Virus record (IMG/VR): IMGVR_UViG_3300021963_000576
Coordinates: 1-26,088 of that record
Length of the DNA: 26,088 nucleotides
Strand: one strand, 5' to 3'
Origin: a virus
Positions 9,071-15,781 of this stretch are shown here, in pieces (positions within the stretch are counted from its first letter, which is position 1; every line of letters begins with the position of its first letter). Under the pieces are notes generated by a model. That model searched no databases. It saw only the letters and a list, made by a program, of their open reading frames with translations, and had not been told where the DNA came from. The position numbers were made by a program, and so were the translations under genes.

Positions 9071-9976
9071 ATGAGCCTACCATCACGAAAACCTGTCAAC
9101 TATTTAAATAATAAAGACATTTTAAAAGAAATTCACGAAAGCAAAAACGCATATTGTTACTTTACAAAGCCTGAATATCACAGATATGATTTTATTGTAG
9201 ATATGCCCCAAGCTAGTATCGAAGATAGTTTAGAGTATGCTTTCAAACCCGAAACAATTCAACAAGCAAAAGAAACACGTGCATTAAGATTAAGTTTAGA
9301 GCAAGGTTCTAAAGACGCAGTTAGTCCTGATTCAATAGAACTAACAGATTTAGTATTTCGTGTAATGACTTGGGATCACGTTCCAGTAGCACCAAAACAA
9401 CCCCGCAAAACAGTTAAAAAGAAAACAGCAAAGGATATCTTTGAGTTTGATGAGGAAGATCCAGATGCGATTTTCGCTGACTTAGAAGATAATACGACCA
9501 AAGCTGAAGTGGATGATATGGTTCACGTTAAAGTTAACTTCCCACCATTCCAACATTACAAAATTGATTCAAATAATACATTCTATTGTGTGGGCAAAAG
9601 TCATTGGGAAGGTGATTTAGAAACAGGTTCTTTTAATAAAGAACACGGTAAAATTACAAATAAACTTGCCCGTATGTATATTATGATGTGTGAAAAATAT
9701 GCAATGAAATATAATTGGCGTGGGTATACATACAACGATGAGATGCGTAACTCAGCGATACTTCAACTAACTTATGTTGGCTTACGATTCAATGAAGCAA
9801 AATCAGCTAACCCATTCGCTTACTACACAGCCGCTATAACAAATAGTTTTTGCCGTGTATTGAACACAGAAAAGCGCAATCAAAACATCCGAGACGACAT
9901 TTTAGAATTAAATGGACTAAATCCAAGTTGGTCAAGACAAGGGTCTGGGTCAAGTTCTACTGTGTACGAAGAATAA
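9071..9976 (+). CDS. 55: Late-transcription sigma factor, gp55-like, with long N-terminal extension
   Basis: The C-terminal part, about residues 175-275, matches T4 gp55, the phage sigma factor that directs host RNA polymerase to late promoters. Visible features are a helix with NKLARMYIMMCEKYAMKYNW, then YTYNDEMRNSAILQLTYVGL, then ANPFAYYTAAITNSFCRVLN, equivalent to the sigma region 2 core. The protein is 301 residues, T4 gp55 is 185, so about 120-150 N-terminal residues are extra. That extension contains a basic stretch (KQPRKTVKKKTAKD) next to an acidic one (FEFDEEDPDAIFADLED). The start has GGAG eight bases upstream. The gene opens the plus-strand set and is followed by a hairpin terminator-like element. 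Its predicted targets, CTAAATA/ATAAATA, recur across the window. Confidence 0.88.
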   Translation: MSLPSRKPVNYLNNKDILKEIHESKNAYCYFTKPEYHRYDFIVDMPQASIEDSLEYAFKPETIQQAKETRALRLSLEQGSKDAVSPDSIELTDLVFRVMTWDHVPVAPKQPRKTVKKKTAKDIFEFDEEDPDAIFADLEDNTTKAEVDDMVHVKVNFPPFQHYKIDSNNTFYCVGKSHWEGDLETGSFNKEHGKITNKLARMYIMMCEKYAMKYNWRGYTYNDEMRNSAILQLTYVGLRFNEAKSANPFAYYTAAITNSFCRVLNTEKRNQNIRDDILELNGLNPSWSRQGSGSSSTVYEE

Positions 9977-9982
9977 TTTAAC

Positions 9983-10012
9983 CAAAGCCGTTGCTAATGT
10001 GACGGCGTTTTT
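9983..10012 (+). terminator. Probable rho-independent terminator after gp55
   Basis: GCCGT (9987-9991) pairs with ACGGC (10002-10006), extendable by a wobble pair, followed by GTTTTT. It lies seven bases after the gp55 stop. The stem is short, so read-through to gp47 is likely. Confidence 0.5.
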
Positions 10013-10025
10013 ATATAATAGACGA

Positions 10026-11042
10026 ATGAGTAACCTTTTTAAAAAAGCCGCTGTGTTCACTGATATTCATTTTGGATTGAAGTCAAACAGCCTACAACAT
10101 AATCAAGACTGTGCCGATTTCGTAGATTGGTTCATCAAAAAAGCAAAGAGTGAGGGTTGTGAAACTTGTTTCTTCTTGGGCGACTGGAATCACCATCGTG
10201 CAAGTATTAACATTCACACATTACAATTTGGATTACAAGCATTGGAGAAACTAAGTGCAAGCTTTGATACTGTATATTTTATCCCAGGCAACCACGATCT
10301 TTATTATCGTGACCGCAGGGACATACATTCTGTTGAATGGGGTAAACATTTACCAAATGTTAAAATTATCAATGACTTCTTCCAACAAGGAGATGTAGTT
10401 ATTGCCCCTTGGTTAGTTCAAGATGATTATAAAAAGTTACAAAAGATGGGCGGCAAATACTTGTTCGGTCATTTAGAGTTACCTCGTTTTTATATGAATG
10501 CTATGGTAGAGATGCCGGATCACGGTGAAATCAATGAAGAACATATGACTGGCTTTGATAAAGTATTCAGTGGTCATTTTCATAAGCGACAAGCACGTAA
10601 GAATATTTGGTATACGGGTAATGCGTTTCCGCATAACTATGCTGACGCAGGAGATGATGCTCGTGGTATGATGATTTTAGAATGGGGTAGTGAGCCAGCG
10701 TTTCATACTTGGCCTAGACAGCCCGTTTTTCGTGTTCACAAACTCAGCGATGTATTAGAAAACCCTGAAGGCTTGTTATTGATTGACAGCCATGTTAGAG
10801 TACATCTTGATATTGAAATCTCATACGAAGAAGCAAACTTCTTACGTGAAACTTGGATCCCTGAACATAAACTAAGAGAGATGGCATTGATTCCTATGAA
10901 AGTAGAAACAAATGAGAACGGTCAAACTGCTGACGGATTGAAGTTTGAATCAGTAGACCAAATCATCATTGACCAGATTAACGCAATCGAATCAAATAAT
11001 TTTGACAAAAAGATTCTTTTGGACATTTATAACAATCTATGA
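10026..11042 (+). CDS. 47: Recombination endonuclease subunit gp47 (Mre11/SbcD-like)
   Basis: 338 residues from the ATG at 10026. An in-frame GTG at 9999 would add nine residues but lies inside the terminator hairpin, so the ATG is preferred; the ribosome site is weak in either case. All calcineurin-type metallophosphoesterase motifs are present: DIHFG near the N-terminus, GDWNHH, GNHDLYY, GHLE, and GHFHKR. In T4, gp47 is the nuclease partner of the gp46 ATPase. The complex resects double-strand ends for recombination-dependent replication and helps degrade host DNA. The last codons overlap the next small ORF by four bases (ATGA), which in turn overlaps gp46, so the three are coupled. Length matches T4 gp47 (339 residues). 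Confidence 0.93.
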   Translation: MSNLFKKAAVFTDIHFGLKSNSLQHNQDCADFVDWFIKKAKSEGCETCFFLGDWNHHRASINIHTLQFGLQALEKLSASFDTVYFIPGNHDLYYRDRRDIHSVEWGKHLPNVKIINDFFQQGDVVIAPWLVQDDYKKLQKMGGKYLFGHLELPRFYMNAMVEMPDHGEINEEHMTGFDKVFSGHFHKRQARKNIWYTGNAFPHNYADAGDDARGMMILEWGSEPAFHTWPRQPVFRVHKLSDVLENPEGLLLIDSHVRVHLDIEISYEEANFLRETWIPEHKLREMALIPMKVETNENGQTADGLKFESVDQIIIDQINAIESNNFDKKILLDIYNNL

Positions 11043-11245
11043 CCGACAGATTAGATTCTCTTATAAAAATAAACAAGCACTTGGGTATTGCGTTATCTGA
11101 ATTATCAAAGACACAACCTTATGTAGGCAGTTTAAGAGAAACACATAGATTGATTAGTGCTAAACTCAAAATAGAAAGTATTATAGAAAAAACATTAAAG
11201 GCAGAAAAATTAGCCAAAGATAGTTTTTTTAGAAAATTAAAATGA
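11039..11245 (+). CDS. Small conserved-position protein between gp47 and gp46
   Basis: 68 residues, basic and predicted mostly helical (LDSLIKINKHLGIALSELSK, then a long Lys/Glu-rich helix ending FFRKLK). It overlaps gp47 upstream and gp46 downstream by four bases each (ATGA), strong evidence for real, coupled translation. T4 also has small ORFs around gp46/gp47 (such as 47.1), but similarity in sequence cannot be claimed. Function unknown; a regulator or accessory subunit of the gp46/gp47 nuclease is a guess from position. Confidence 0.7.
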   Translation: MTDRLDSLIKINKHLGIALSELSKTQPYVGSLRETHRLISAKLKIESIIEKTLKAEKLAKDSFFRKLK

Positions 11246-13314
11246 TTACACTCCAAAATATAACTTTACGCAATTTTTTAAGCATCGGCGCAGTAACACA
11301 AGCAGTTGACTTTGATAAGAAAGACTTAACACTTATTCTAGGTGAAAATTTAGACTTAGGAGGTGACGGTGCTCGTAATGGTACGGGCAAGACCACATTG
11401 ATTCAAGGTCTTAGCTATGCACTGTTTGGTCAACCTATTAACAACATCCGCAAAGATAACTTAGTCAATCGCACAAATGGTAAAGCTATGTTAGTTACAT
11501 TGACATTCAATGTTAATGGTACTAACTACAAGATTGAACGCGGTCGTAAACCTAACATTCTCAAGTTCTATGTCAATGATGTTCAGGAGAAGGCTTCTGA
11601 GGATCAGCAAGGTGAGAACAAAGAAACACAGGCAGCTATCGAAAAGGTCATTAATATGACACCCGATATGTTCCGCCACATTGTTGTATTGAACACATAC
11701 AGTGAACCATTCTTAGCACTGAAGAACAATGATCAGAAAGATATCATTGAGCAATTGATGGGTATCACTCTGTTATCTGAAAAAGCTGAGGTCATCAAAG
11801 AGATGATCCGCAGAAGTAAAGATGATATTCAAAGTGAAGAATTCCGTGTTAAAGCTATTGAAGAAGCTAACAAGCGAGTTAAAGAACAAATTGATGCATT
11901 AAAGCGTAGACAAACATTATGGTTGAAGAAACACGATGAAGATTTGACTACACTCGCCCTTCAGTATGATGAACTAAGCAAAATTGATATTCAAGCAGAG
12001 TTACAAGCACACAAAGATTTAAACGTATGGACGAAGCAGAAAGAGGCGCAAGATACTTACAATGCCTTAGTTGCTCGTTCTACTGCTTGGCAACAAAAAC
12101 ACGATACTGATGTGACAGTAGCATACACGGCTTACTTGCGTAAAAACGAATATGATATTGATGCTGAACTTAAAGCTTGGAGTGACTTAAAAGAATGGTT
12201 ACACAATGATGCTGAACAAAAATCTATAGCAACAACAATTGATACCCTAACCAAAAGTATTACGAAAGAAAAAAAATTAATTGATAAATTGGTTCGGGAA
12301 GTTAAAGAACTTGAGGATCACAAGTGTTATGCGTGTGGTCAAGACTTCCACGATGATAAACATTTAGAAGTTACATTAGAAAAGACTACATTACTTGAGA
12401 ATGCTAAAGCTGATTTGGCTGACCTCGAACGTAAATTGTCAGACAATCAATCGTTGGTTACTGAATTAGGTCCTAAGCCTACTCCATCATACAAGACAGA
12501 AGCAGAAGCTATTCGTCACAGCGGTGATGTAGCTAACTTAAAGAAAGTATGGGAAGACAAGAAACAAGAGTCTAATCCATTTAGTGAACAACTAAATGAT
12601 TTAACACCGGTAGTTCTAGGCCCTCAGCCTGTAACTCATTATGACACAGAAGCCGAAGCAGTTAAACATTCAAGTGAAGTTGCTAATATTCTAAGTCAGA
12701 TTGATAATAAGTCACAAGAATCTGATCCATACGCAGAACAAGTAACTGAAATGGAAACACAAGCACTACAAGCAATTGATTTTGAAGCTATTAATCGTTT
12801 GACACGAACAATGGAACATCAAAAGTTCTTGTTAGATTTGTTAACTAGCAAAGATAGTTTTGTTCGTAAGAAGATTATTGACCAGAACTTGAGTTATTTA
12901 AATAGTCGATTGACACATTACTTAGACAAGATCGGTCTACCACATCAAGTTATCTTTAAGAATGACTTGCAAGTTGAGATTACAGAATTAGGTCGTGAGC
13001 TTGACTTTGATAATCTTTCACGCGGTGAACGCAATCGATTGATTCTAGGCTTGAGTTTTGCGTTCCGTGACGTTTGGGAATCATTATACTCACCAATCAA
13101 TACATTATTCATTGACGAATTGATTGACAGTGGTCTTGACACAATGGGTGTTGAGAACAGTCTAGCAATTCTTAAAGATATGAGCCGTCGCAGACAGAAA
13201 TCTATTTGGCTTGTATCACACCGTGAAGAACTAGCAGGTCGTGTACCTAACGTTCTCAAAGTTGTTAAAGAAAATGGCTTCACAAGCTATAACACTGCAG
13301 TAGATATCGAATAA
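11242..13314 (+). CDS. 46: Recombination endonuclease subunit gp46 (Rad50/SbcC-like ATPase)
   Basis: 690 residues (T4 gp46 is 560). Walker A is GARNGTGKTT at 43-52; the zinc hook is CYAC at 362-365, in the middle of the coiled coil; the ABC signature is LSRGERNRL at 592-600; Walker B is TLFIDEL at 621-627; and the switch histidine is H660 in WLVSHREEL. This is the SMC-like ATPase partner of gp47. The extra length comes from the arms. The N-side arm holds two copies of a unit (about 225-270 and 280-326, both with KHD then a D-I-x-AEL motif), and the C-side arm holds two copies of another (409-450 and 459-500, both LGP then Y-x-TEAEA, HS, ESxP). The stop overlaps the ATG of the next gene (TAATG). 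Confidence 0.94.
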   Translation: MITLQNITLRNFLSIGAVTQAVDFDKKDLTLILGENLDLGGDGARNGTGKTTLIQGLSYALFGQPINNIRKDNLVNRTNGKAMLVTLTFNVNGTNYKIERGRKPNILKFYVNDVQEKASEDQQGENKETQAAIEKVINMTPDMFRHIVVLNTYSEPFLALKNNDQKDIIEQLMGITLLSEKAEVIKEMIRRSKDDIQSEEFRVKAIEEANKRVKEQIDALKRRQTLWLKKHDEDLTTLALQYDELSKIDIQAELQAHKDLNVWTKQKEAQDTYNALVARSTAWQQKHDTDVTVAYTAYLRKNEYDIDAELKAWSDLKEWLHNDAEQKSIATTIDTLTKSITKEKKLIDKLVREVKELEDHKCYACGQDFHDDKHLEVTLEKTTLLENAKADLADLERKLSDNQSLVTELGPKPTPSYKTEAEAIRHSGDVANLKKVWEDKKQESNPFSEQLNDLTPVVLGPQPVTHYDTEAEAVKHSSEVANILSQIDNKSQESDPYAEQVTEMETQALQAIDFEAINRLTRTMEHQKFLLDLLTSKDSFVRKKIIDQNLSYLNSRLTHYLDKIGLPHQVIFKNDLQVEITELGRELDFDNLSRGERNRLILGLSFAFRDVWESLYSPINTLFIDELIDSGLDTMGVENSLAILKDMSRRRQKSIWLVSHREELAGRVPNVLKVVKENGFTSYNTAVDIE

Positions 13315-14192
13315 TGCCAGATATTTTTCGTTTTCAGAATGTAAAGATAGTTCATTTCGAACCTACTACAAACTGCAATGCGGCCTGTCCTCAGTGTTTG
13401 CGCACTAGAACAGAGTTTGAACCAAACGAATTAAGTTTAGATGACGTAAAATTATTGTTTACTCCAGACGTATTACTGCAATTAGAAAAAATCTATATGT
13501 GTGGTAACTACGGTGATCCTGCAAGTGCTAGACAAGCGATTGAGATGTATGAATACTTCAAGTCTGTGAATCCTAATATCATCATTGGTATGAACACTAA
13601 TGGTGGTATACGTTATCCTGAGTGGTGGGACAAACTAGCCAAAATAATGACAGGCGAAAAAGATTATGTTGTATTCAGTATAGATGGATTGGAAGATACT
13701 AATCATTTATATCGTAGAAATGTTCGTTGGTCGAAAGTTGTAGAAAATGCGCAAGCATTTATCAATGCAGGTGGCAAAGCACATTGGGATATGTTAGTTT
13801 TTGAACATAACAAACATCAGGTTGATCAAGCACATCTTATAGCAAAGCAAATGGGTTTCAAGTGGTTCCGTGCTAAAGTTAGCAGACGATTCACACGTTT
13901 CCCGGTAGACGGTATTAGTCAACCAATTGAATTCGTAGATAATAAAGTAACTCAAGGTTATATCGAATGTAGTGCTATGAAAGAGAATAGCATTTATGTT
14001 GATGCATCCGGTAAAGCTTACCCTTGCTGTTGGCAAGGTGAGAATCAGCATCAACCAAATATTGTTCAATGGTTTTATGATTTGTCTGAGAATTGGAATA
14101 CAAACCCTGATAAGACTTGCGCCAAATCTTGTTTAAAGAATAATAGCGGAACTACATTTAGCAATCAGTGGTATAGGGCAATAGAATTATAA
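13314..14192 (+). CDS. Radical SAM protein with C-terminal cysteine cluster (copy 1)
   Basis: 292 residues. C21, C25 and C28 form the CNAACPQC motif (CX3CX2C) that holds the 4Fe-4S cluster and SAM. MCGNYGDP (about 62-69) stands where many family members have GGEP, and TNGG (95-98) and FSIDGLEDTNH (121-131) fit later strands of the partial barrel. The C-terminus has C219, the pair C238-C239 in YPCCW, and C269/C273 (CAKSC), spacing like the auxiliary cluster of twitch or SPASM proteins that act on peptides or proteins. The substrate is unknown. The start overlaps the gp46 stop and the end overlaps copy 2, each by one base (TAATG), so it is expressed with the recombination genes. QueE-type 7-deazaguanine synthesis is less likely given the C-terminal cysteines. 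Confidence 0.85.
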   Translation: MPDIFRFQNVKIVHFEPTTNCNAACPQCLRTRTEFEPNELSLDDVKLLFTPDVLLQLEKIYMCGNYGDPASARQAIEMYEYFKSVNPNIIIGMNTNGGIRYPEWWDKLAKIMTGEKDYVVFSIDGLEDTNHLYRRNVRWSKVVENAQAFINAGGKAHWDMLVFEHNKHQVDQAHLIAKQMGFKWFRAKVSRRFTRFPVDGISQPIEFVDNKVTQGYIECSAMKENSIYVDASGKAYPCCWQGENQHQPNIVQWFYDLSENWNTNPDKTCAKSCLKNNSGTTFSNQWYRAIEL

Positions 14193-15196
14193 TGTTAGCA
14201 TCATGGCATTTTCATATTGAGATAAGCAGTAAATGTACGCTTAAATGCCCACGGTGTCCACGTCAAGAATCACCTGATACTCTTGTTAATAGCGAATTAG
14301 ATTTAGAGTTTTTCAAGCGTAATTTTACTCCCGAATTTATCAAACAACACGTTGAGAAAATCACGTGGTGTGGAGATGATGGAGATCCTATATATGCACA
14401 CGATTTCTTAGAAGTTATAAAATATATTAAGGCAATTAAAAATGTAGCAATGTCAATTGTTACTAATGGCAGTTACAAGAAAGAGTCATTTTGGTCTGAG
14501 CTAGGTCAAGTATTAGATGAGACTGATCAGGTTCATTTCAGTATAGACGGTTATGACCAATATAGTAATGAGCAATATCGGGTGAACAGTAACTGGGATA
14601 GCATTGTATTAGGAGTAAAGACTCTTAGAGCTAATAGCAATTGCTTGATGATTTGGGATGCAATTGGTTTCAAATTCAATGAAACTAAAATTGATTATAT
14701 GAAGCAACTTGCATCTGAGTTGGGATTCGATACTTTTCAATTAAACAAGAGCACTAAGTTTGGTGTTTATAATCCTATATACGGAATCAATGATCCTTTA
14801 CAACCAATTGATAGCTTAATAGCATCGGGTCATAGATTTCAAAGAGAGTTTAGTAATTTATCAGGTAGAGAATTAGTTAAGCCGTGGATGCCTATTAATC
14901 TTGAGTTTTATAACAATGTTGCTATAATAGATGATAAGATAAAACCGTTGTGTCACGTAGGTAATAAAGGATTGTTTATTAATAGTCAAGGTGACTTTTT
15001 TCCCTGTTGCTGGGTAGCGAATCGCTATTCACATAATGATCATTGGCTAGATATTAGTAAGAAGTTTAACCTACACAAAAATAGTTTAAAAGATGTTATT
15101 ATCAATGAATTTTGGAATAAAGAGTTCATTAATAATAGTTTAGAATGTGTTAACAAATGCAGTAAACACATTGTAACAGAAAAATATGCAACCTGA
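14192..15196 (+). CDS. Radical SAM protein with C-terminal cysteine cluster (copy 2)
   Basis: 334 residues, a diverged paralogue of the preceding gene. CTLKCPRC gives C15, C19 and C22 of the SAM-cluster motif. WCGDDGDPIYAHDF (about 59-72) matches MCGNYGDPASA of copy 1. FSIDGYDQY (116-124) again follows. The C-terminal cysteines repeat the same pattern: C254, C272-C273 in FPCCW, then C319 and C323 (CVNKC). The two share the same architecture but little else, so duplication is old or each was acquired separately. The ATG overlaps the stop of copy 1. Reaction and substrate unknown; a protein or peptide modification is inferred from the SPASM/twitch-like tail only. Confidence 0.83.
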   Translation: MLASWHFHIEISSKCTLKCPRCPRQESPDTLVNSELDLEFFKRNFTPEFIKQHVEKITWCGDDGDPIYAHDFLEVIKYIKAIKNVAMSIVTNGSYKKESFWSELGQVLDETDQVHFSIDGYDQYSNEQYRVNSNWDSIVLGVKTLRANSNCLMIWDAIGFKFNETKIDYMKQLASELGFDTFQLNKSTKFGVYNPIYGINDPLQPIDSLIASGHRFQREFSNLSGRELVKPWMPINLEFYNNVAIIDDKIKPLCHVGNKGLFINSQGDFFPCCWVANRYSHNDHWLDISKKFNLHKNSLKDVIINEFWNKEFINNSLECVNKCSKHIVTEKYAT

Positions 15197-15217: not shown

Positions 15218-15781
15218 ATGCCAAGTCCACAAAAAGCAAAAGGTTCCGGTTTTGAGCGAGAAATCGCTAAATATCTATCAGAGAAGTATGGTGAGTCATT
15301 CATTCGTGCTCCAGGATCCGGTGCTTATATCGGTGGAAAAAATCAGTCAAGAACACAAATTCTACACGAAGGTCAGATTAGAAGTTTTAAAGGGGACATA
15401 GTTCCCGGACATACTTTTACTAAGATGAATGTAGAGTGTAAGTTTTACGCTGATTTTCCGTTTCATTTATTACTTTCAGGGGAATGCAAAGTAATAGATG
15501 CTTGGCTCGAACAACTCATGGATGTAGCCGATCCCGAAGATTGTAATATTCTTTTTATGAAATTCAATCGTAAGGGTCGCTATGTTGCTGTACAAAGCAA
15601 ACTAACATGGGTGACTGACAATTTTGTATATTATACTAATCCCAAACACGGCGATTGGATAATTATGGAATTTGACAGCTTCTTCTTAAACAACAGTACA
15701 TTATTAAAAGCATATTCAGGCTCAACAGACACCACGTCAAATCAAACTGTTACAAATAACATCCTCACAATAGAAACTTAA
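15218..15781 (+). CDS. PD-(D/E)XK-type nuclease, possibly resolvase-like
   Basis: 187 residues. The N-terminus KGSGFEREIAKYLSEKYG (8-25) supplies an early acidic residue (E15), D60 is in SFKGDIVPG, and E73/K75 are in VECKFY. This order, E...D...ExK, is the PD-(D/E)XK metal-dependent nuclease core, with the usual positive loop between (RAPGSGAYIGG). Members include Holliday-junction resolvases and phage DNA-processing enzymes. The exact subfamily is not resolved. Coming after gp47/gp46 and the radical SAM pair, a job in recombination or packaging DNA repair is plausible. About 20 bases separate it from the previous stop. The ribosome site is weak. The C-terminal 25 residues are Thr/Asn/Ser-rich and probably disordered. 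The non-coding structured region begins right after its stop. Confidence 0.72.
   Translation: MPSPQKAKGSGFEREIAKYLSEKYGESFIRAPGSGAYIGGKNQSRTQILHEGQIRSFKGDIVPGHTFTKMNVECKFYADFPFHLLLSGECKVIDAWLEQLMDVADPEDCNILFMKFNRKGRYVAVQSKLTWVTDNFVYYTNPKHGDWIIMEFDSFFLNNSTLLKAYSGSTDTTSNQTVTNNILTIET

Follow-up and report, generated by a model that had tools for sequence, protein, structure and literature searches.

Two radical SAM genes in a variable cargo slot behind the phage recombination gene gp46

We analysed a pair of radical S-adenosylmethionine (SAM) genes, here called rsA and rsB, in the IMG/VR virus record IMGVR_UViG_3300021963_000576. The virus is an uncultured T4-like phage. The window is the whole stretch that was analysed, positions 1-26,088 of that record (26,088 bases), and all positions refer to it. 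The two genes lie in a central operon whose order is gp55-type sigma factor, gp47, an open reading frame (ORF) of 68 amino acids, gp46, rsA, rsB and a PDDEXK_15 nuclease. The slot that they occupy and its borders are as follows:

11242..13314, + strand: gp46, SbcC-like recombination nuclease subunit, left border of the slot (phrog_77, 355.7 bits)
13314..14192, + strand: rsA, radical SAM protein of 292 amino acids with one predicted auxiliary Fe-S cluster site (Pfam Radical_SAM, 42.9 bits)
14192..15196, + strand: rsB, radical SAM protein of 334 amino acids, of a subfamily other than that of rsA (Radical_SAM 29.2-30.8 bits, SPASM 21.8 bits)
15218..15781, + strand: PDDEXK_15 nuclease, Holliday-junction-resolvase-like, right border of the slot (PF24608, 88.1 bits; phrog_244)

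An earlier note, made from the sequence alone, had located both ORFs correctly and had described them as one base apart from gp46 and from each other; the real spacing is a one-base overlap. At the gp46/rsA junction (GAATAATGCC, around 13312-13316) and again at the rsA/rsB junction (TTATAATGTT, around 14190-14194), the last base of the stop codon is also the first base of the next start codon (TAATG), and the slot genes are probably translated together with gp46 via these overlapping codons. No site resembling a terminator lies in the stretch from gp46 to the nuclease, promoter- and terminator-like matches looked for as internal signals of the operon are at about shuffle level only, and a scan of the operon for RNA families and tRNAs gave no Rfam or tRNA match. 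GC content is 0.366 in rsA, 0.372 in gp46 and 0.328 in rsB, which makes rsB slightly more A+T-rich than the other two, and the codon fit of rsA equals that of gp46.

When we compared this site among viral loci (lists of the best 80 matches, incompletely dereplicated, with counts that are descriptive), we found that an rsA-type gene stands directly after gp46 and overlaps it in 66 of the 75 rsA-anchored loci, which is consistent with the coupling to gp46 that had been suggested. Among the best 80 loci anchored on gp46, 28 have an adjacent radical SAM gene, 51 have none and one breaks off before that point; gp46 runs directly into the PDDEXK gene in many of the loci nearest to the window. The backbone of gp55, gp47, gp46, nuclease and hub also occurs without radical SAM genes. 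The site is polymorphic: window relatives L005-L019 carry rsA only, L026, L027, L031, L035 and L036 carry rsB only, other viral loci carry both, and L254, L257, L292 and L305 show further combinations. The gp46-nuclease junction is therefore a variable cargo slot that has repeatedly been filled with one radical SAM family. Because either gene occurs alone at the same site, an obligate heterodimer of the pair is not supported; a specific role with the nucleases fares no better, given a variable slot and close relatives whose gp46 continues straight into the PDDEXK gene. The nearest cultured relatives are the jumbo phages PA5oct, Phosso and Atu_ph07 by portal and gp46, and XaC1 by portal. In PA5oct, Phosso, Atu_ph07 and a Vibrio jumbo phage, gp47 and gp46 are present and there is no annotated radical SAM gene at that place.

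Selfish cargo, without a role in the window's phage and kept because the gp46-nuclease junction tolerates insertions, would fit the patchy distribution (in 51 of the 80 loci anchored on gp46, no radical SAM gene adjoins it) and the NUMOD3 homing-type genes that also enter the slot. When compared with close relatives, however, the ratio of nonsynonymous to synonymous substitution rates (dN/dS) is 0.025-0.105 for rsA and 0.036 for rsB, about as low as the 0.047-0.065 of gp46 (one comparison has saturated dS), and because of these values rsA and rsB are no chance ORFs but genes under strong purifying selection. All catalytic cysteines are kept, gp46-linked rsA genes form one viral clade, and the rsA/rsB pair contains no nuclease or transposase. 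Selfish cargo is thus a very improbable explanation.

We built a tree from 134 proteins. Its gp46-linked rsA sequences group together (40 viral rows and one contig labelled Pacearchaeota) with a Shimodaira-Hasegawa-like approximate likelihood ratio (SH-aLRT) support of 99. The rsB sequences form a group of their own (18 viral rows, support 83), which joins one Bdellovibrionales protein with support 100. Bacterial branches separate the two groups, although many deep forks are weakly supported. A recent tandem duplication of rsA into rsB is rejected by this tree, with the same caution about its deep forks. Since each gene has a viral clade to itself and bacterial branches lie in between, rsA and rsB most likely go back to separate acquisitions from bacteria, after which both were retained; the two proteins, 31% identical over 209 amino acids, are homologous members of separate subfamilies with bacterial relatives between them. 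Among cultured phages we found no close relative of rsA and four distant ones of rsB.

We also considered bacterial gene context as a decisive clue and rejected it, as the contexts vary: Bdellovibrionales homologues lie in multi-radical-SAM clusters, Oscillatoriales homologues are fused to a TPR region, and gammaproteobacterial ones stand beside a likely methyltransferase gene. The Oscillatoriales proteins (L198:7995-9578 and similar) are 527-amino-acid rsA homologues whose TPR-like region is C-terminal, and one Bdellovibrionales cluster includes a QueC-like ATP-pyrophosphatase (L206:7047-7805). At L229:5868-8570 and similar gammaproteobacterial loci, the rsA homologue follows IHF-alpha-like and MerR-like genes in conserved order, 3' of the methyltransferase-like gene and 5' of a gene for 356 amino acids that resembles an aminotransferase by eye. 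Loci L156, L158/L184 and L165, filed as Pacearchaeota ARS103, Rickettsiales MED657 and Neisseriaceae CE-Jul18, are phage-like contigs with phage-type ORFs and are probably mis-binned; two of them share the same ORF of 71-73 amino acids.

To describe the proteins themselves we used three alignments: A1 (rsA, rsB, their relatives and three Campylobacter phage proteins), A5 (65 rsA-type sequences) and A6 (which covers rsB). The motifs lie at these positions:

13374..13397, + strand: rsA CX3CX2C (C21, C25, C28), ligands of the SAM-binding [4Fe-4S] cluster; invariant in A1 and A5
13500..13520, + strand: rsA CGNYGDP, the family form of the GGEP region; read in the sequence, near-invariant in A5
13968..14132, + strand: rsA C-terminal auxiliary cluster cysteines C219, C238, C269 and C273 (A1, A5)
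14234..14257, + strand: rsB CX3CX2C (C15, C19, C22); invariant in A6
14369..14389, + strand: rsB CGDDGDP motif; read in the sequence, with C60, G61, G64, D65 and P66 invariant in A6
14951..15160, + strand: rsB auxiliary cluster cysteines C254, C272, C319 and C323; invariant in A6

Pfam and the alignments agree with the earlier reading of two homologous radical SAM proteins with CX3CX2C, and this motif is kept in relatives. Against Radical_SAM (PF04055, cut-off 29.5 bits), rsA scores 42.9-44.4 bits and rsB is borderline, with 29.2 in the protein scan and 30.8 in a six-frame scan. SPASM (PF13186, cut-off 21.5) is matched by rsB at 21.8 bits and not by rsA in the Pfam scan. Alignment A1 keeps C21, C25 and C28, the TN of a TNG motif, F..DG, YR and N166, and C238, C269 and C273 are invariant in it; in A5, C219 and C238 are invariant, and C269 and C273 are found in at least 90% of sequences. 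The replacement of GGEP by CG-x-x-GDP, which had been noticed in the window, is real and family-wide (96 of 104 viral rsA-type sequences, all 53 viral rsB-type sequences and 56 of 94 bacterial homologues). Because phage CP220 has G-x-x-[GC]-EP in that region, CG-x-x-GDP is a signature of the subfamily and no oddity of the window's phage. A pattern of C-gap-G-gap-C followed by CX2-3C is present in 96 of 104 viral rsA-type and 51 of 53 rsB-type sequences. In place of the seven cysteines and two auxiliary clusters of a SPASM domain, there are four conserved cysteines and one neighbouring cysteine (PCC), and both sequences have the short C-terminal domain with about four conserved cysteines that characterises a twitch domain. 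The four cysteines would fit one predicted auxiliary cluster; of the "SPASM/twitch-like" tails proposed before, the twitch-like part stands and the full SPASM part does not.

AlphaFold2 models of both proteins are confident, with a predicted local distance difference test score (pLDDT) of 94.5 and a predicted template modelling score (pTM) of 0.91 for rsA and values of 90.3 and 0.90 for rsB. The core begins 15-21 residues from the N-terminus, and neither Pfam nor the models show an extra domain. Searches of solved structures with the single rsA and rsB sequences gave no match, and profile searches of the PDB reached at best E 0.0006-0.002, to viperins and a sactisynthase-type protein. Compared with MoaA, anSME and SuiB, the models give Z 16.5-19.0 (the partial TIM barrel of the radical SAM fold). 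The top PDB fold match of both is the peptide maturase SuiB (Z 18.6-19.0), and small-molecule enzymes are also matched (BlsE, Z 17.9-18.6; DesII, 17.1-17.5; BtrN, 14.4-15.7), with SkfB, anSME, MoaA, PqqE, ChlB and viperins among the further matches. Since peptide and small-molecule enzymes are mixed, the fold alone names no substrate.

We ran the profile search against radical SAM subfamilies that the earlier note had proposed, and neither protein reached any NCBIfam cut-off, so a curated subfamily assignment was rejected. The best NCBIfam match is TIGR04317, a tungsten-enzyme maturase (60.7 and 52.4 bits, cut-off 380), which is matched by all 65 rsA-type members, and the NirJ and AhbD models match weakly (AhbD 25 bits, cut-off 500). 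These matches raise the idea that rsA and rsB mature a cofactor or metalloenzyme, building a heme-like or metal cofactor for the host as TIGR04317-, NirJ- or AhbD-type relatives. However, the scores are far under the cut-offs, no cofactor pathway genes lie near rsA or rsB, and the "ahbD" calls made for Baltic viruses are speculative according to their authors (PMC9301287); we consider cofactor maturation unlikely. NF033640 (N_Twi_rSAM) describes twitch radical SAM proteins of the same enzyme kind, but rsA scores 33.5 bits against its cut-off of 170 and has no N-terminal FCxxPW region, and rsB is not among its matches. True members (282-352 bits) do occur in an island of the close relative G003, where about a dozen such twitch-type genes and a carbamoyltransferase gene (L069-L070, 36-62 kb of the contig) lie close to a gene that resembles a tail fibre gene.

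Nucleotide or DNA modification, or viperin-like antiviral nucleotide chemistry linked to replication and recombination, would suit the operon context, and the rsB profile finds viperins in the PDB with E about 6e-4 and rsB matches the PADLOC pVip model with 32.7 bits. Yet rsB is far below the viperin cut-off (NF038283, 27.9 against 180 bits), and the window has no base-modification genes. To our knowledge viperins have no auxiliary cluster site, unlike rsA and rsB, in which it is conserved. We therefore regard nucleotide chemistry as improbable.

Peptide or protein modification is the main rival to the explanation that we favour. In this case the two proteins would act as SPASM/twitch maturases that put a thioether, a C-C bond or an epimer on a phage or host protein, possibly on the co-translated gp46 or gp47. 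The fold matches include SuiB, SkfB, anSME and ChlB, the coupling to gp46 is stable over wide divergence, and rsA distances follow gp46 distances (Mantel r 0.71 over 51 loci, compared with 0.74 for gp47 and gp46, both with shared ancestry uncorrected). In contrast, there is no N-terminal leader-peptide-binding domain, and most loci leave no room for the nearby precursor gene that would be expected with a maturase of ribosomally synthesised and post-translationally modified peptides, though a precursor encoded farther away may exist; the absence of an adjoining precursor gene that had been seen in the window was borne out. In 82 of 123 blocks of gp46, radical SAM genes and nuclease (not dereplicated), every gap is at most 75 nt, which leaves little room for a precursor. 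The 68-amino-acid ORF between gp47 and gp46 was considered as a precursor and rejected, because it also occurs where gp46 runs directly into the PDDEXK gene: homologues with 70-87% identity are found in L248, L274 and L280, none of which has a radical SAM gene after gp46, and the ORF is not tied to radical SAM genes. Furthermore, gp46 of close relatives does without rsA and rsB, and dehydrogenase fusions, described below, would be unexpected for a peptide maturase. We consider protein modification possible but doubtful; the missing leader-binding domain and the scarce space for a precursor count against it.

Cargo in the gaps comprises about 199 members of a cluster dominated by the rsA/rsB radical SAM family. 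We also found short-chain dehydrogenases of about 170-205 amino acids in the slot, and these relatives, outside the window, give the strongest hint of a function. Of 16 non-redundant cases, 13 are adjacent and three are fused to a radical SAM protein of the family, and none of this type was found away from a family radical SAM gene in the sampled loci. The fusions (L148, L254 and L259, about 570 amino acids) come from three contigs and the two sequences that were compared differ, which makes an assembly error unlikely. An alignment of seven stand-alone dehydrogenases (194-202 amino acids) and two fused domains keeps TGG-x-x-GLG and YR-x-[SA]-K. In the rsB branch, a dehydrogenase lies 5' of rsB-like genes in L134, L257, L292 and L305, and in the Bdellovibrionales locus L190 a protein that matches short-chain dehydrogenases below the threshold (21.6 bits, cut-off 26.6) overlaps the rsB homologue.

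Taken together, these data lead us to an explanation that we believe about as firmly as we doubt it: rsA and rsB may be accessory, long-resident metabolic enzymes in the gp46 cargo slot of a jumbo T4-like phage lineage that tailor a small molecule, probably a sugar-like one, and have no part in recombination. Besides the dehydrogenases, this reading draws on the other cargo of the two gaps and on the sugar-type neighbours of radical SAM genes in CP220 and Mosig (both given below), on the fold matches to BlsE, DesII and BtrN, and on the lack of a peptide-binding N-terminal domain and of a precursor. The earlier note had left the choice between a protein and a small molecule open, and the dehydrogenases adjacent or fused to this radical SAM family shift it towards the small molecule without settling it. 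From family knowledge and the conserved cysteines, each enzyme would bind a [4Fe-4S] cluster via CX3CX2C and cleave SAM to a 5'-deoxyadenosyl radical, and one auxiliary Fe-S cluster in the C-terminal twitch-like domain would take part in electron transfer. The substrate would most likely be a small molecule and probably a sugar or a metabolite resembling a nucleotide sugar; the radical enzyme might oxidise, dehydrate or epimerise it before a short-chain dehydrogenase completes the reaction by hydride transfer. The dehydrogenase for the window's phage would be host-encoded or lie outside the 26-kb fragment, and the product might serve a surface or tail glycan or alter a host metabolite.

Several observations weigh against this explanation. 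The fused radical SAM proteins belong to a third subfamily, neither rsA nor rsB; the window's rsB sits in a sub-branch without dehydrogenase; in the window there is no dehydrogenase or sugar gene beside rsA or rsB; and the best fold match is the peptide maturase SuiB, tied with BlsE, so that the fold is indecisive. Loci were sampled via rsA, rsB or gp46, which inflates the apparent linkage. Five of the 16 dehydrogenase cases were found by anchoring on gp46, a way of sampling that did not select for radical SAM genes. A bolder version, to which we give little credence, is that gp46-linked radical SAM proteins with or without (fused) dehydrogenases form a phage-specific biosynthetic pathway whose product, a novel modified sugar or nucleotide, serves replication itself; this product could decorate phage DNA or virions against host defence, and such a pathway would account for how stably the genes are coupled to gp46.

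AprD4 belongs to another radical SAM subfamily than rsA and rsB. A radical SAM diol dehydratase, it works on a sugar together with the NADPH-dependent reductase AprD3 (PMC5461906). The adjacent or fused short-chain dehydrogenases of rsA/rsB relatives suggest a similar working principle, which is known here from gene association and is not a matter of family membership. The dehydrogenase fusions point to a redox pathway, a concrete combination of radical SAM enzyme and dehydrogenase in one polypeptide.

Aquatic T4-like phages frequently carry radical SAM enzymes as unexplained metabolic genes, and best-hit annotation tends to give the viral ones misleading names (AhbD, MoaA). Phages of this kind rich in radical SAM genes have already been described. 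The T4-like Campylobacter phages CP220 and CPt10 (Firehammervirus) have 11-12 radical SAM genes in an exchangeable operon (PMC2853527); homologues there share 25% identity, CX3CX2C and three auxiliary cysteines with rsB. In contrast to the window, they do not lie at gp46, have G-x-x-[GC]-EP in place of CG-x-x-GDP, are accompanied by an amidinotransferase and glycosyltransferases, and branch outside the rsA and rsB viral clades. A marine T4-like contig has 12 radical SAM genes (Nishimura 2017, PMC5332604), and a hypervariable cluster of pelagimyophages has radical SAM cassettes (PMC7029224). Such cassettes, with up to 12 radical SAM genes and some Fe-S carriers, resemble relatives of the window, which have up to 19; the parts of these two papers that we consulted give counts or a cluster elsewhere and mention neither a slot at gp46 nor a fusion to a dehydrogenase. 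In the open-licence literature we met no description of a fixed slot behind gp46, of its pattern of presence and absence or of the fusions to dehydrogenases, and we claim with moderate confidence that the slot and the fusions are new. One radical SAM subfamily can now be assigned to a fixed place in the genome, behind gp46, which makes the link testable.

Large relatives are rich in radical SAM genes, with 19 on a 347-kb contig, 13 on a 337-kb contig and 12 on a 262-kb contig. Sixteen are present on the 116-kb L011 contig (gp46 92% identical to that of the window), which has a radical SAM island where carbamoyltransferase and dehydrogenase-like genes also occur. A-type Fe-S carriers are encoded twice in each of the two largest contigs; the idea that every relative carries Fe-S supply genes was rejected, as they occur in two of 15 records. 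Among cultured phages that carry distant relatives, sugar-type neighbours are seen as well: CP220 combines its radical SAM operon with glycosyltransferases and an amidinotransferase, and Mosig has an ArnB-like aminotransferase, a carbamoyltransferase and an epimerase as neighbours.

The operon begins upstream of the slot with three further genes:

9071..9976, + strand: gp55-type late sigma factor, start of the operon (phrog_12791, 245 bits)
9999..11042, + strand: gp47, SbcD-like nuclease subunit (phrog_100, 216 bits)
11039..11245, + strand: the 68-amino-acid ORF between gp47 and gp46 (homologues in L248, L274 and L280)

Baseplate hub, tape-measure-like, portal and head genes lie 3' of the PDDEXK_15 gene. 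The gap between gp47 and gp46 is a second, smaller cargo slot in relatives. Further cargo of the two gaps includes B12-type radical SAM proteins, a sulfotransferase, NAD-epimerases, a Trp-halogenase, an AMP-binding enzyme and a 2-oxoglutarate-Fe(II)-oxygenase-like protein. Between gp47 and gp46, L311:1122-2690 is a tryptophan-halogenase-like gene (PF04820, 193.6 bits), and L307:2820-3998 encodes a protein of 393 amino acids that is amidinotransferase-like by eye, without Pfam support. The gp46 of the window (11242-13314) has 690 amino acids compared with about 590 in many relatives, and its additional part seems to hold a repeated motif (TEAEAIRHSGDVAN / TEAEAVKHSSEVAN). The nuclease that closes the operon is PDDEXK_15 in the window's clade (15218-15781) and a SegE-type GIY-YIG protein (PF19835, 116.8 bits) in another, with genes at L020:7016-7447 and L027:7425-7859. 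These are unrelated nucleases at the same position, and the right-hand nuclease is exchangeable too.

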